From Armatimonadota bacterium (GTDB lineage: Bacteria; Armatimonadota; Fimbriimonadia; Fimbriimonadales; Fimbriimonadaceae): DNA of 33,163 bases. Position numbers and translations under genes: made by a program. Position 1 is the first letter of the stretch. Each line of letters begins with the position of its first letter. Positions 15,770-22,500 of the stretch are shown in pieces. The notes beneath the pieces are model-generated. The model was not told the origin of the DNA. It saw only the letters and a program-made list of their open reading frames with translations, and did no database searches. The stretch spans positions 1 through 33,163 of the forward strand of contig JAGQUX010000027.1 in assembly GCA_020438215.1 (NCBI GenBank), in the 5' to 3' direction.

Positions 15770-17091
15770 CAATTTTTATCCTCAGATTTTTGTTCTTCGT
15801 CCGGTTTCTCTTCCCGTTGTAAATTGTTCAAATCGTCTTGACCAACCGCCTTTTGGAGCGCGGCATAAGCAATCCGCACTCGGTAAGCCGCGATTGATCG
15901 TGAATTCATTGCCGAAGTCAAATCGGCTTGGCTCGTTGTGACATCAAGAAGGATTCCCACTCCCTCGTCATACCGAAGCTGGGCCAGCCTCAGGGCTTCC
16001 TTCGCAAGCTCAACGTTCTGCTCAGCCGTCACAAAATTCTCATGAGCGGTCTGGAATTCCGTCATTGCTGTGCGAACTTCCAATGCAATTCCCAGCAAAA
16101 CTTGCTCTTGAGAAATCTTTGCCCGCTCTTCACGCTCCTTGGCTGAGCGAGCGTTGGCCGCAACCGCTCCACCCGTCACAATCGGGATGGTGAAGACAGC
16201 TTGCGCCGATGTTTGTCCATCTGTCTGACCAAAGTTCGGGTTGATATTTCGGGTGTATGCCGCTTGCAATCGCAAACTTGGTCGTCCCGCCTTTTCTTCA
16301 GCTTTGCGGGCTTCCGTCAGGCTCTTAATCGCCCAATCCACTTGCTCAACTTCCGGTCGAGACTCCAAGGCTGCTTGAACCAACTCATCCACCGGTTGTT
16401 CAAGCTCAACGAGGCTCGGAGCCGTCTGTACTTCAAACTCAGTTTCGATGGCTCGGCCCAGTGTGTTATTCAAATCCTGTTTGGCATTTTTGAGTCTGCC
16501 CTTGGCATCAATAATCGCTTGCTCCGATTGCCGCACCTGAGTTTCCAAACGCAATACATCAAAGCGAGGAATTGCCCCTTCTTGCAGGCGAATCCGGGCT
16601 TTTTCAAGACGTTCCTCATTTGCCGTCTTTGTGGCTTCCTGGATTTCTAATGCTTCTGCCGCCTGGCTAACGGCAAAGAACTTCGCTCGAACCTGCCCGC
16701 GCAAAGTGTTTTTGGCAACATCAATTCCCGATCGCTGAGCCTCGATATTGAAGCCTGCCGCCCGAATCTTGCTCTTGTTGATGCCCGAGATATCCAGAAC
16801 TTGCTGTACGCCTAGCTGAACAGAGGTTGTCGTGCTACTCCCCGAAGGGCCGAAGCTGCCACCACCTTCAAAGTTGGAGAAAGAAGTCGTTGTGGTGATG
16901 CTTGCACCAGGGCCAATAGCCGATTGCGCTAATTTCCTGGTTGCTTCCGCTTCATTGACTTGGCTTTCGGCGGTTCGGATAGCAAAGGAATTTCCTTCAG
17001 CGATGGTCAGGGCTTCATCAAGGGTCAGAAAGCCATCGTTTTGAGGAAACCTGAGCAAAGCGGCAGCGAATCCGAGGGCAAGTACGCTCAT
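15769..17091 (-). CDS. TolC-family outer-membrane efflux channel
   Basis: A 440-residue outer-membrane efflux protein of the TolC family (the outer-membrane exit of the tripartite pump). The N-terminal hydrophobic stretch SVLALGFAAALLRF is a likely signal. Two OEP repeats follow: FLTLDEALTIAEGNSFAIRT, NLRGQVRAKFFAVSQAAEAL-type helices and ARIRLQEGAIPRFDVLRLET in the first, then ESRPEVEQVDWAIKSL, SAQAVFTIPIVTGGAVAANA and AQLRYDEGVGILLDVTTSQA in the second. The C-terminus is strongly charged (EEKPDEEQKSEDKN). The start codon overlaps the upstream regulator's stop by 4 nt. Start choice ATG 17091 fits the overlap; a stronger signal peptide would need a different start and none is evident. Confidence 0.9.
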   Translation of the reverse strand: MSVLALGFAAALLRFPQNDGFLTLDEALTIAEGNSFAIRTAESQVNEAEATRKLAQSAIGPGASITTTTSFSNFEGGGSFGPSGSSTTTSVQLGVQQVLDISGINKSKIRAAGFNIEAQRSGIDVAKNTLRGQVRAKFFAVSQAAEALEIQEATKTANEERLEKARIRLQEGAIPRFDVLRLETQVRQSEQAIIDAKGRLKNAKQDLNNTLGRAIETEFEVQTAPSLVELEQPVDELVQAALESRPEVEQVDWAIKSLTEARKAEEKAGRPSLRLQAAYTRNINPNFGQTDGQTSAQAVFTIPIVTGGAVAANARSAKEREERAKISQEQVLLGIALEVRTAMTEFQTAHENFVTAEQNVELAKEALRLAQLRYDEGVGILLDVTTSQADLTSAMNSRSIAAYRVRIAYAALQKAVGQDDLNNLQREEKPDEEQKSEDKN

Positions 17092-17348
17092 CCTGCTTTC
17101 TCCTCGCTTTCTTTCTCGGCTTTCTCAACTTGCTCAATCATGCGGTCCAAGCTCTGCCGAAACTCTTCCACAAAGTCCGAAACGGCGTCGATTTTTGAAA
17201 CCATCAAGCCTTCATAGATCGGGTGACGCATTACTAAAAGCTTGTCTCCTGCTTGGATGTTCAGTTCCGCGCGAGCTTCTGCCGGAATGACGATCTGGCC
17301 CCGCTCCCCAACGGTGACCGACCCGTAAAAATAGTCATGGCATTTCAT
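17088..17348 (-). CDS. AbrB/MazE/SpoVT-type regulator of the efflux operon
   Basis: An 86-residue protein whose first 50 residues form an AbrB-type swapped-hairpin DNA-binding domain: VTVGERGQIVIPAEARAELN and GDKLLVMRH are the diagnostic strands. The C-terminal 35 residues are a helix rich in Glu and Lys (SDFVEEFRQSLDRMIEQVEK), probably for oligomerisation. Placement as first gene, with a 4-nt overlap with the TolC-like gene, and the repeat cluster around its start suggest it controls its own operon. That function is inference. Start ATG 17348 has GAGGG about 9 nt upstream. Toxin-antitoxin MazE is a structural alternative, but no toxin gene is adjacent. Confidence 0.88.
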   Translation of the reverse strand: MKCHDYFYGSVTVGERGQIVIPAEARAELNIQAGDKLLVMRHPIYEGLMVSKIDAVSDFVEEFRQSLDRMIEQVEKAEKESEEKAG

Positions 17349-17387: not shown

Positions 17388-17456
17388 ATCACGAAATCGT
17401 CACCAATCTCAAAGAAGGAAGACAAAGACCCACTTGATCGGTAGAATTTGCCTGGT

Positions 17457-18416
17457 ATGAATCGCTCTCAACTCCTCATTGCTACGACATTGTCCGCCGG
17501 GATAGTTGCGAGCGCGGCGCAAGCTCAGGACGCAATCCCCACAAGAAACCACCGCTCAGTAGCACTTGCATTCCTCCGGCCAGTGGCTCTTGGTGAAACT
17601 TTGCCGAACGGCGAAAAGAACATTAGCTGGCAACTCGTGATTGCAAACGAACTGCGTCGTCCGCAATTCAACCTCCACGAAGACTCAGAAACCTGGCGAT
17701 TGCAATACACCTATCGCTACACGGACGACAAAGGCGTCGAATACACATTCTTGGTTCCTGTCCTGTCACGCGGGGGCGGTGTTTTGGATGGGTTCCTCGC
17801 TTGGTATCACAAAACTCTTCTCTCTGATGTGAACCACGCTCGGCTCCTTGCTCCCAATGGGCGATCTATTGTCACCGTGCCAGGGAGCAAAGACTTTGTC
17901 TCAGCATCAGGGATTGGGGATGTCACCGGTGCGGTCGGAATCACCAAACCAGAGGGAACGTACCGACTTTGGCTCAAGCTCCCGACCGGGGATGCCTCAC
18001 GCCTGCTCGGATCAGGGAATGTCGACTTCGCAGTCAGTTGGGAAAAGCAATTCAACCTTCTCCGCAAACTTGACCTACATGCCCAGGCCGGGCTTACTGT
18101 TCAAGGTCGCCCGAGCGAACTCCCGCACGGACGAGGATTGGTTGATAACTACACTCTCGGGCTCGTCTACTCCGCCAATGCGAGTGAGAAATACCACTTC
18201 CAATGGAACTCCGAAACATCACCAACCATCACCGGCAATCGTTCGACCGATGCCGCGCATAGAGTCATCACTCTTGGCTTCACCAAGGTCTACTCCGACA
18301 GCCAGTTCACCGTGTACTTTAGCGAAGATGGCGACTTCGGGCTGTACGACTTCCAAGGCGGGGCGCAAATCGGACCAGACGTCACTTTTGGGTTCATCTG
18401 GTCACAAAAAAAGTGA
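17457..18416 (+). CDS. DUF3187-like outer-membrane beta-barrel protein
   Basis: A 319-residue exported protein starting at ATG 17457 (MNRSQLLIATTLSAGIVASA), with Ala-Gln-Ala cleavage at about residue 24. The mature part has the DUF3187 pattern: an N-terminal RNHRSVALAFLRP strand, then YRYTDDKGVEYTFLVPV, the landmark GGGVLDGFLAWYHKTLL, and alternating beta-strands through GFIWSQKK at the end. That family is thought to form an outer-membrane barrel of unknown role. A TTG start nine nt upstream (17448) is possible. It diverges from the abrB-like regulator, so the GTATGA repeats could influence it too. Its stop lies in the 5' arm of the hairpin at 18411-18440. Confidence 0.8.
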   Translation: MNRSQLLIATTLSAGIVASAAQAQDAIPTRNHRSVALAFLRPVALGETLPNGEKNISWQLVIANELRRPQFNLHEDSETWRLQYTYRYTDDKGVEYTFLVPVLSRGGGVLDGFLAWYHKTLLSDVNHARLLAPNGRSIVTVPGSKDFVSASGIGDVTGAVGITKPEGTYRLWLKLPTGDASRLLGSGNVDFAVSWEKQFNLLRKLDLHAQAGLTVQGRPSELPHGRGLVDNYTLGLVYSANASEKYHFQWNSETSPTITGNRSTDAAHRVITLGFTKVYSDSQFTVYFSEDGDFGLYDFQGGAQIGPDVTFGFIWSQKK

Positions 18417-19132: not shown

Positions 19133-20956
19133 CTACGGCGCCTGGCCCAACCATTCATTCCAGAATGTGTCTTGGGCGAATTTCAATCGTTCGTAATCCG
19201 TTCGGAAGATGCTGTAATTCCCTTGACTTGAGAAGTCAATCGAGAGGCCATTACTCTTGGGTGATTGAGCGTTGTGCCCTTCCCAAATGATCGCCGCGTC
19301 AACCGCTGCACGGGCATTTGCCGCCGCAGTTTTGACATTGGCTGGCACCGTCGCATCGGCTTCCAATATCAGGCAGAGATCAATAATGTCCCGGTAAGTT
19401 CGCGTCGAGTTCGGGCTGTACGATTGCGCTGTTGCCCGCGCCGTTTGCACCGCCGTTGTCACCGCGACCTTGTTGCTAATAAGTTCCTGCGCGAAGTTAT
19501 GCAGAGCCGTAGCTAATGCCGTCATCTGCGTTGTATCAATCACGCTTTGTGTGATTTTGCGGGTGGCGTAAGGTGGATTGTTCACCATGCCATCCACGAA
19601 CGCCTTTGTCAGCGTCGCGGTTGTTGCATCCGGGTTATCGCGGAACACATTGAAGATAGATTGGTACGGATACCCTTCTCCCGGTGGGCTTTCTTCCGAA
19701 CCAACAATGTAGTCTGCATAGCTACGTGCCTCGTAGGCAACTTCCATCATCTGCATTAAGCTGGCATCCCAGGCAATGATGTCGAAGTGTTCGCCAGCAA
19801 GTGCGGCGTCGGTTTCCCAAGTTTTGATCGAGCTGTTGTACTGATCGTCATAACTAAACGCACGCGTTGGGAGATCGTCTTCTGGAGCACGGCTCCAGCC
19901 ATTTCCGTGGTTCCAGAGCACCAAGCAATAACGATCCGCTGGATAGTTCGCTTTGCCCCACTTGATAAAATCGTTGAGCGTTTGCGCTTTCCCCATATCC
20001 AGAGCATTACCAAAGTTGTCTTTGATGTTGCTTTGCACCAGTTCGCTGGCGATATTGCTGGTGCTATCTTGCTTCACCAAATACCGGCGCACACCGTCAA
20101 AACTAGAGCCAGACCAGTTTGATTTCGATTGCTTCCACTGCAACACGAATCGGACATCCGGGTTTCCAGCGACCTGCTCCATCTGGTTTACGTTCAGATC
20201 ACTGAAGGAATACAAGTCGTTTGCCGCATTGATGTAAACCAAAACCGTCCACTTGGATTGAGTGATGATCTTCTGATTCACCGTAACCGGCGCAGAGCCA
20301 ACAACTGCCCCATTATATGTCGCTGAAACCGAGCCAGAACCCGCCGTCGTGGCCGTCAGAACGCCTGCCGTGCTGATTGTTCCAACGCCCCCCGCCACGC
20401 TCCAAGTCATAAGCGATGGATCAACAAAAGTTGCACGACCACCTTGAAACGCCGTAGCAATGTATTGCGCGGTCTGTTGCTGGGTAAGGGTGAGGCTAGG
20501 AATAGAAACTTGAACACTCGTCGGAGTGACACCGTATTGAGTGCTTGCCGTCACCGTAATCCCGCCAGGGCCACCAGCGCAGAGATCGAGTAGGAGGTCA
20601 GTCACACCAAGGACGGTGCCACTGGCATTCGCCCCAGAGTAGATCGTTGCTTTCAGCCGATAAACCGCCGCGTTGATGGATGAAACGTTCAGCGTAGATG
20701 TGGATGATGAACCGCGATTAAGTGAATCTGTACGAACAACGAATCCATCCGTATCAATGATCTGCAGAACTTGCGAAGCCCCCGCTGGAGCAGAGCCCCA
20801 ATCCGTTGTATAGATCAGGTTTCCTGCGACCGTTGCGACCGAACACGCGCCAAATCCTAACCCCGATGACCCCGTAACGGTTCCGCCACCGCCGCCACAG
20901 GCGGCCAAAGAAAAAGCGGTCGCCACACACACAAATCCAAGCAAAAATCGATTCAT
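19133..20956 (-). CDS. Clostripain-like (peptidase C11) lipoprotein with catalytic Cys replaced by Ser
   Basis: A 607-residue lipoprotein. The lipobox LAAC precedes a Gly run (Cys about residue 20), so the protein is anchored on an envelope membrane facing outward. Residues about 35-130 form one beta domain and about 135-230 a Big-like Ig domain (WSVAGGVGTISTAGVLTATT). The C11 domain begins at about 236 with KWTVLVYINAANDLYSFSDL. The catalytic His350 is in VLWNHGNGWS; the site FDIIAWDASLMQMMEVAYEA carries Ser399 where the family has the nucleophile Cys (DACLM). The codon is AGC at 19762-19760. The rest (YIVGSEESPPGEGYPY) is normal. Proteolysis by the usual mechanism is therefore doubtful. A TTG one codon upstream (20959) is an alternative start. 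Confidence 0.9.
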   Translation of the reverse strand: MNRFLLGFVCVATAFSLAACGGGGGTVTGSSGLGFGACSVATVAGNLIYTTDWGSAPAGASQVLQIIDTDGFVVRTDSLNRGSSSTSTLNVSSINAAVYRLKATIYSGANASGTVLGVTDLLLDLCAGGPGGITVTASTQYGVTPTSVQVSIPSLTLTQQQTAQYIATAFQGGRATFVDPSLMTWSVAGGVGTISTAGVLTATTAGSGSVSATYNGAVVGSAPVTVNQKIITQSKWTVLVYINAANDLYSFSDLNVNQMEQVAGNPDVRFVLQWKQSKSNWSGSSFDGVRRYLVKQDSTSNIASELVQSNIKDNFGNALDMGKAQTLNDFIKWGKANYPADRYCLVLWNHGNGWSRAPEDDLPTRAFSYDDQYNSSIKTWETDAALAGEHFDIIAWDASLMQMMEVAYEARSYADYIVGSEESPPGEGYPYQSIFNVFRDNPDATTATLTKAFVDGMVNNPPYATRKITQSVIDTTQMTALATALHNFAQELISNKVAVTTAVQTARATAQSYSPNSTRTYRDIIDLCLILEADATVPANVKTAAANARAAVDAAIIWEGHNAQSPKSNGLSIDFSSQGNYSIFRTDYERLKFAQDTFWNEWLGQAP

Positions 20957-21042
20957 CAATTCTCAGACGCTCCAAAAAGGCAATTCTTCTTGACTATGGC
21001 ACCTATTCATTCCTCAAAAGAGGCCAATCATTGTAATAACCC

Positions 21043-22500
21043 TTGAAGGAACGTGACCTGACTCAGCATCTCGCCCAGTTCATCCCTGAACTCAGCGGGA
21101 ACGCAACGATGTCTGGATTCTCCACTCGTTTGGACTCCGGAACGGGTCAGTCTGTCGAACTCATCCTGCCCACACCGGCTGGGTTCGACCACCTTCCTGC
21201 CGAAGAGCTTGGGCTCATCGTCCTCAACGACCAAGACCAAATTGTTGCGGGATGGGGGATGCTCCAACCGGCCAGCCCAGCCGTCGGTGAACCTTGGCGC
21301 ACCATCGCTAACCATGCGCGCAGAACTGGCCACTATCGCCAAACGCAAGGGGCCATCCAGTTCGTAGCCAAATACGACCAACGCACCAGAGCAGTTACAA
21401 TCCTCGCGGTTTATGTCGAAGCTCTTGGCGTGATGGAGCAACGCATCAAATCGCAAGAACGCTCAACAAGTGCCCTCACCCGAGTTGGCAAAGTTCTTTC
21501 CATGAACCAAACGCTCCACCCACTTGCGGTTTCCACGGTTCACACAATTGTCAATACTCTCGATTTGCAAGCCATCCTGCTTTGGGTGCAACACGAACCA
21601 GGCACACCGCTCCGGCTGATTGGACACACGGGGATTGAGAGGCACGGTCTGGATTACATCAAAGAATTGAATTTAGGAGACGGAATCAACTGCCTCGCCG
21701 AGGCAGTGATGGAAACCAAGCGTCCAATCTGGCTTGCGAGCGTCAACGATTCTGATCTCACCAAAAACTTGGAAGCGAAATACTGCTGTCTCCAGCCAGG
21801 GCCTATTGCGGCAATCCCGCTATCTGGCGGTACAGAAACCATCGGTGTTTTGGAACTGGTCGGCAAAGCCGATGACCAGCTATTCTTGACAGAAAAAACA
21901 CTGCACATCACTTTGGCTGAACACCTTTCTCTTGCATTGAAGAGCGCGCTTCTGTTTGAAAAAGCAGAAATGCAAGCAAACATCGATCCTCTTACCGGGA
22001 TTGCTAACCACCGGACAATGCAGGATTATCTCGCTCGCCGACTCGATGAAGCGAGCCGGAACCAGACTCCGATTGGAGTTGTGATGATCGACGTCGACCA
22101 CTTCCGGCAATTCAACGAAGAAGAAGGGCACGATGCTGGCGATGCCGTTCTGCGGCTTGTTGCCCACACTCTGCAAGATGGAGTGCGGAGCTATGACCTC
22201 GCCGCCCGCTATGGTGGAGAAGAGTTCACGCTCATCCTTCCTGGGCTTGATGGTGAAGCCACGAAGGAAATCGCCGATCGCATCCGCAAGATGATTGCGA
22301 AGCTAGAGTACAAAACCAAGAAGGGCTCTTATCGCCGGATTACCGCGAGTTTGGGATGTTCTTCTTTCCCCGCAACAGGTTCTGCCCCGCAGGAACTCCT
22401 CAAAAATGCGGATATCGCTCTCTACAAATCGAAAGAGTGGGGACGAAATCAGGTTCAACTTTTCGATCCGGAATGGGCGGAATTGCCCGAGTCGGCCTAG
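21043..22500 (+). CDS. Diguanylate cyclase with GAF sensor
   Basis: A 485-residue soluble protein making the second messenger c-di-GMP from two GTP. Domains: an N-terminal PAS-like or unassigned part (1-130), a short coiled coil (about 128-145), GAF (about 150-305, with LGDGINCLAEAVMETKRPIW and AAIPLSGGTETIGVLEL), and GGDEF (about 312-475). The active site GGEEF (391-395) is intact, the DPLTGIANH start signature is present, and RSYD (382-385), five residues ahead of it, is an intact inhibitory I-site, so product feedback is expected. The first available start is TTG 21043, with no good ribosome-binding site; ATG 21109 is an alternative that would remove 22 residues. Divergent from the C11-type gene across 86 bp. 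Confidence 0.9.
   Translation: MKERDLTQHLAQFIPELSGNATMSGFSTRLDSGTGQSVELILPTPAGFDHLPAEELGLIVLNDQDQIVAGWGMLQPASPAVGEPWRTIANHARRTGHYRQTQGAIQFVAKYDQRTRAVTILAVYVEALGVMEQRIKSQERSTSALTRVGKVLSMNQTLHPLAVSTVHTIVNTLDLQAILLWVQHEPGTPLRLIGHTGIERHGLDYIKELNLGDGINCLAEAVMETKRPIWLASVNDSDLTKNLEAKYCCLQPGPIAAIPLSGGTETIGVLELVGKADDQLFLTEKTLHITLAEHLSLALKSALLFEKAEMQANIDPLTGIANHRTMQDYLARRLDEASRNQTPIGVVMIDVDHFRQFNEEEGHDAGDAVLRLVAHTLQDGVRSYDLAARYGGEEFTLILPGLDGEATKEIADRIRKMIAKLEYKTKKGSYRRITASLGCSSFPATGSAPQELLKNADIALYKSKEWGRNQVQLFDPEWAELPESA

Follow-up and report, generated by a model that had tools for sequence, protein, structure and literature searches.

A clostripain-like lipoprotein with serine in place of the catalytic cysteine

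The window (the whole stretch of DNA that was analysed, 33,163 nucleotides of a contig from an Armatimonadota bacterium) carries on its minus strand a gene for a lipoprotein of 607-608 residues, the single match to the Pfam Peptidase_C11 profile (PF03415) in this Fimbriimonadia genome, and beside it a divergently transcribed diguanylate cyclase gene. Residue numbers start from the TTG at 20959, such that numbers counted from the ATG are lower by one. The features that concern us here are as follows:

19133..20956, minus strand: C11 (clostripain)-like lipoprotein gene, with its ATG start at 20956
19133-20959, minus strand: open reading frame as listed, with a TTG start at 20959, one codon 5' of the ATG
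20897..20956, minus strand: signal peptide and lipobox (SLAA-C21), read from the sequence; lipid-anchor Cys codon at 20899-20897
20537..20824, minus strand: N-terminal beta-sandwich, residues 46-141, from predicted strands in the AlphaFold2 model; no family
20267..20527, minus strand: Big_2-type Ig-like domain, residues 145-231
19136..20263, minus strand: C11 caspase-like catalytic-fold domain, residues 233-608
19907..19909, minus strand: His351, equivalent of PmC11 His133
19862..19864, minus strand: Arg366, equivalent by alignment of the self-processing sites clostripain Arg190 and PmC11 Lys147 (PMC4850288)
19766..19768, minus strand: Asp398, equivalent of the PmC11 S1-pocket residue Asp177 (PMC4850288)
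19760..19762, minus strand: Ser400 (399 from the ATG), codon AGC, at the catalytic Cys position by sequence and alignment
19685..19690, minus strand: Ser424-Pro425, a pair that co-varies with Ser400 and lies in the substrate-binding loop GSEESPPGEGYPY
21043..22500, plus strand: GAF-GGDEF gene for a diguanylate cyclase, divergently oriented and conserved beside the C11 gene

The lipid anchor proposed in the first-pass annotation is borne out by the lipobox SLAAC, which is followed by a Gly-rich linker; lipobox-like N-termini were recognized by a crude pattern match in 53 of 84 relatives, many of them continuing into Gly runs. The Big-like domain proposed at the same time is also present, as residues 145-231 of the model match a Big_2 crystal structure (7r3t) with Z 11.8, the Pfam Big_2 match alone being sub-threshold (E 0.32). 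The second beta-sandwich (residues 46-141) had been absent from the earlier domain list. For the C-terminal domain, PF03415 matches residues 241-604 with 165 bits against a cut-off of 25.8 (E 4e-48), and the AlphaFold2 model aligns over 357 residues with clostripain (9cip_B, Z 38.0), with Z 33 to 6n9j and 6mzo and Z 18 to the heavy chain of 3uws, in keeping with the intact fold that had been supposed to surround the active site.

Caspases, legumain, gingipains, separase and clostripain are members of clan CD. This is described as a clan of cysteine peptidases (PMC12445089), whose motifs were defined as H(G/A) and D(A/S)C in the PNT1 paper (PMC4850289), and a 2023 study of C11 states a His/Cys dyad for all C11 proteases (PMC10315481). 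The translated window protein has WDASLM where the family has DACLM, the Ser being encoded by AGC at 19762-19760 just as first noted, and the His of the NHGNGW motif, numbered 350 earlier, is intact at residue 351. The window protein has a PF03415 score above the gathering score, the C11 fold in the predicted model, the HG-motif His351 and the S1 residue Asp398, whereas the catalytic Cys of the D(A/S)C motif is Ser400. By profile and predicted fold it is a member of the C11 homology family; annotation as a C11 cysteine peptidase is inappropriate, because the defining catalytic Cys is replaced.

The C11 lipoprotein gene and its divergent GAF-GGDEF neighbour (window 19133-22500) stay together in most genera of the family, with roughly 35-52% identity of the GGDEF protein over about 30 loci, and rpsR often lies downstream of the C11 gene at these loci. 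A functional link between the two genes, for example c-di-GMP-linked surface proteolysis, is possible. Convergent with rpsR, window 17448-18416 encodes a DUF3187 protein (weak Pfam match, 7e-7), homologues of which occupy the corresponding position by the C11 gene within the genus and in some other genera. Just upstream of an OEP-HlyD-AcrB efflux operon, window 17088-17348 encodes a MazE-type antitoxin-like DNA-binding protein, for which a toxin partner is not evident and which likely regulates the efflux pump; its homologues lie near the pump or the C11 locus in several relatives.

The serine is shared by most Armatimonadota relatives

Among 226 distinct C11 domains, drawn partly from Armatimonadota and partly from genomes outside this phylum, the nucleophile column holds 137 Ser and 89 Cys and no other residue, and the His is invariant (226/226). 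Ser400, His351 and Asp398 are all invariant in the 137 Ser forms, at a mean identity of 44%, and Asp398 is present in 86 of the 89 Cys forms. Alignment of homologues from the same class, as suggested in the first-pass annotation, revealed a clade of Ser forms: the Ser is found in 7/7 same-genus relatives and in 85 of the 90 class genomes in the tree (80 with Ser only and 5 with both forms, by group code), in a further Armatimonadetes genome (L176) and in that of Armatimonadetes bacterium Uphvl-Ar1 (CP021423.1), a single contig of 2.99 Mb. This Ser clade falls outside both the motif definition (PMC4850289) and the dyad statement (PMC10315481) cited above. By contrast, all C11 proteins sampled around genome G291, from Bacillota, Cyanobacteriota, Actinomycetota and one phage contig have Cys, and searches of plasmids and phages returned only distant C11 proteins, the four examined likewise having Cys.

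A sequencing or assembly error, which the first-pass annotation had entertained, has a negligible probability, as has an inactivating mutation that arose recently in the source genome alone, and both are refuted by the Ser of the relatives. In their favour, the window does stem from a draft assembly of 119 contigs, but the same residue recurs in independent genomes, single-contig ones included, and in 137 distinct domains. Nor does the AGC codon represent one TGC-to-AGC change in the window protein, as had been implied: the Ser is inherited within a phylum-deep clade that uses AGY and TCN codons. From these comparisons, the Ser state is ancient, strictly kept and common to most Armatimonadota relatives.

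The small genomes G291, G292 and G293 and their relatives (L173-L198, L241-L249), apparently outside the phylum group of the window, carry up to 13 C11 genes each, and all those read have Cys; the S1 Asp is lost in L199, L245 and L249 of this group.

The codons of the 137 Ser forms (the AGC of the window included) are AGY in 77 and TCN in 60, and the tree holds 14 changes among AGY, TCN and TGY, including six Ser/Cys changes. Along the Ser-state branches of a 145-row tree, amounting to ∼41 substitutions per site, the residue changed only to Cys and never to Ala, Gly, Thr or Asn. Switches between AGY and TCN pass via another residue and are linked to selection for serine in work cited in PMC6916188. 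The intermediate TGY codon here encodes Cys, the ancestral nucleophile. This pattern points to strong selection for the hydroxyl group of Ser400.

Cysteine was restored repeatedly, in several cases in place

A 226-row tree, built without columns 399-400 and 424-425 and rooted on divergent Cys paralogues, needs six Ser/Cys changes. The main Cys-to-Ser origin falls on the basal branch, with a support of only 70, of a large Armatimonadota clade that has 136 Ser forms, and L171 represents a separate, possible minor origin. The other four changes are Ser-to-Cys reversions that restored DAC (in L158, which forms a Ser/Cys sister pair with L138; in L226/L228; in L115; and in L038/L088/L068/L094). A single Ser clade without nested Cys rows was rejected on the 145-row tree (p-AU 0.0001), and the reverted Fimbriimonadaceae proteins keep the clade markers A246 and K276. 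Several reverted genes have the divergent GAF-GGDEF gene close by (L251, L253, L255, L256), and the Ser-to-Cys swaps at these loci therefore took place in situ. Horizontal transfer or paralogy behind the nested Cys forms is unlikely for L038, L068, L094 and L226, given their position near this GGDEF gene; a GGDEF match near the C11 gene was not found for genomes G063 (L250), G191 (L254) and G067 (L252). In G067 (L252:3909-7392), C11 genes of both types stand in tandem, one with Cys (DACDM, SEELTP) and one with Ser (DASLM, SEESPP).

A loop change accompanies the nucleophile change

The loop after the next strand reads SEESPPG in Ser forms and mostly SEETEPG, or has another pair, in Cys forms. 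S424 occurs in 137/137 Ser forms versus 6/89 Cys forms, P425 in 136/137 versus 1/89, and the S424-P425 pair in 136/137 versus 1/89. The Cys-type Armatimonadota orthologues (for example L038, L088, L068, L094, L115, L158, L226) have the same domain and in several cases the same GGDEF-side locus, and combine DAC with L, N, I or S followed by T or V at 424-425, the reverted Cys state. At the reversions P425 was lost in four of four cases and S424 in three of four, whereas the other 38 of the 40 columns with at least 95% conservation in the Ser clade were lost at one of the four at most. The likelihood ratio for dependent evolution was 50.9 for P425 and 39.9 for S424, compared to 1.9-18.1 for six other columns. 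Tests on independent pairs went in the same direction in most pairs (five pairs, too few for significance), sign tests on the four reversions alone fall short of 0.05, and columns 424 and 425 were picked after inspection of the data, which flatters their p-values; coupling is argued more strongly by how these two columns differ from every other conserved one.

This loop aligns with the PmC11 loop that carries Asp207, a loop reported to matter for substrate binding (PMC4850288), and S424 probably lies close to Ser400. The coupling of Ser400 to S424-P425, as judged from the alignment and the trees, is new here. As opposed to this pair, A246, W275, K276 and W381 were rejected as partners of Ser400, being lineage markers that are largely kept in reverted Cys proteins. 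Position 399 is Cys (D-C-S) in 22 of 137 Ser forms and in 0/89 Cys forms; at this frequency Cys399 cannot be the general replacement nucleophile of the group, and in the 22 proteins that have it, it may act as a nucleophile.

A basic residue is also retained at the processing site. The cleavage sites of clostripain (Arg190) and PmC11 (Lys147) align with each other (PMC4850288); in the corresponding column, 129/137 Ser forms have R or K (R in 128), as do 73/89 Cys forms. The loop preceding R366 (residues 353-364) is of variable length and has a pLDDT under 50 in the AlphaFold2 model. The persistence of a basic residue amid such a variable flanking loop is as would be expected of a cleavage site, and R366 may be kept for structure instead.

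A candidate serine hydrolase on the clan CD fold

Compared with clostripain and PmC11 (MEROPS C11, clan CD; 9cip, 3uws), the window protein has the same fold over the whole domain, the His, the S1 Asp, the basic processing-site residue and the flexible activation loop in common, and differs by the Ser in place of the nucleophilic Cys, by SP at residues 424-425 where these enzymes have TE/ET/VV-type pairs, and by the lipid anchor and the two N-terminal beta domains. Our best explanation, to which we give barely better than an even chance, is that it represents a lipid-anchored, Arg-directed Ser-His hydrolase of clan CD fold that activates itself at R366 and whose cleft is adapted to a serine nucleophile by S424-P425. 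In an ancient Armatimonadota subfamily of C11, the nucleophilic Cys was exchanged for Ser together with the change of the loop to Ser-Pro. His351 would deprotonate Ser400, which would attack the bond after an Arg P1 residue held by Asp398, and the S424-P425 loop would shape the Ser site or hydrogen-bond to it. The protein would be made as a lipid-anchored zymogen and cut at R366 in the disordered loop, like clostripain and PmC11, and we infer a role at the cell surface in protein degradation or processing. A serine variant, which the first-pass annotation had listed among its alternatives, is favoured because of the invariant His, Asp and Ser, the coupled S424-P425 pair, the repeated in-place exchanges with Cys and the retained Arg site.

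The main rival is a pseudopeptidase, in which Ser400 abolishes hydrolysis and the cleft formed by His, Asp, Ser400 and S424-P425 binds peptides or regulates a partner, akin to TbMCA4. We consider this reading doubtful, about half as probable as its denial, and it stays alive because serine activity is putative and because known exchanges of the nucleophile in Cys-adapted scaffolds were detrimental: PNT1 C136S is not viable and loses function (PMC4850289), and PmC11 C179A (PMC4850288) and globupain C185A (PMC10315481) are inactive. It also has a natural precedent in the Trypanosoma brucei metacaspases TbMCA1 and TbMCA4 (C14, clan CD), in which the Cys position is occupied by Ser and flanked by a Cys, recalling the Cys399 that is confined to Ser forms; both are expected to be inactive, and peptidase activity of TbMCA4 was not found (PMC3058108). 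These proteins are, however, from a different family, TbMCA1 is also without the His, and a phylum-deep clade, a coupled loop and reversions are not described for them in PMC3058108. Binding alone poorly explains a catalytic His that is invariant over 137 sequences, where drift of the His would be expected of many pseudoenzymes. Together with an exchange exclusively with Cys, the four restorations of DAC, several at an orthologous locus, and the kept processing residue, this sequence record is hard to explain with a dead enzyme.

A different chemistry is improbable by comparison. Ser400 and His351 would then form a non-peptidase site (esterase or acyl transfer), or Ser400 would be modified post-translationally, with S424-P425 marking a new class of substrates. 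The coupled change in the loop equivalent to that of PmC11 Asp207 suggests that specificity may have shifted with the nucleophile, and D246A and D276K are further changes in the pocket region in Fimbriimonadia; A246 and K276, however, do not follow the nucleophile state, no modification motif was recognized, and the retention of the S1 residue Asp398 and of the Arg/Lys processing site suggests an unchanged P1 preference.

A search of the open-access literature retrieved no paper naming clostripain together with Armatimonadetes, and no Ser-type C11 protein or clan CD serine nucleophile was found there, which does not prove absence. The wider proposal, of a naturally occurring branch of the caspase fold that uses a serine nucleophile, with at least five Cys/Ser switches, several in place and each with a change at S424-P425, is tentative, and we hold it at slightly less than an even chance. 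The sequence record described here makes a natural serine enzyme of the caspase fold plausible; if true, the phylum-wide Ser form would be the first caspase-fold serine enzyme known to us, or else an unusually well-conserved pseudopeptidase. The natural Ser/Cys pairs, even in tandem (L252), may tell what else an active site needs when its nucleophile changes, and, should the serine branch be real, S424-P425 would constitute a ready-made minimal residue set for exchanging Cys and Ser.
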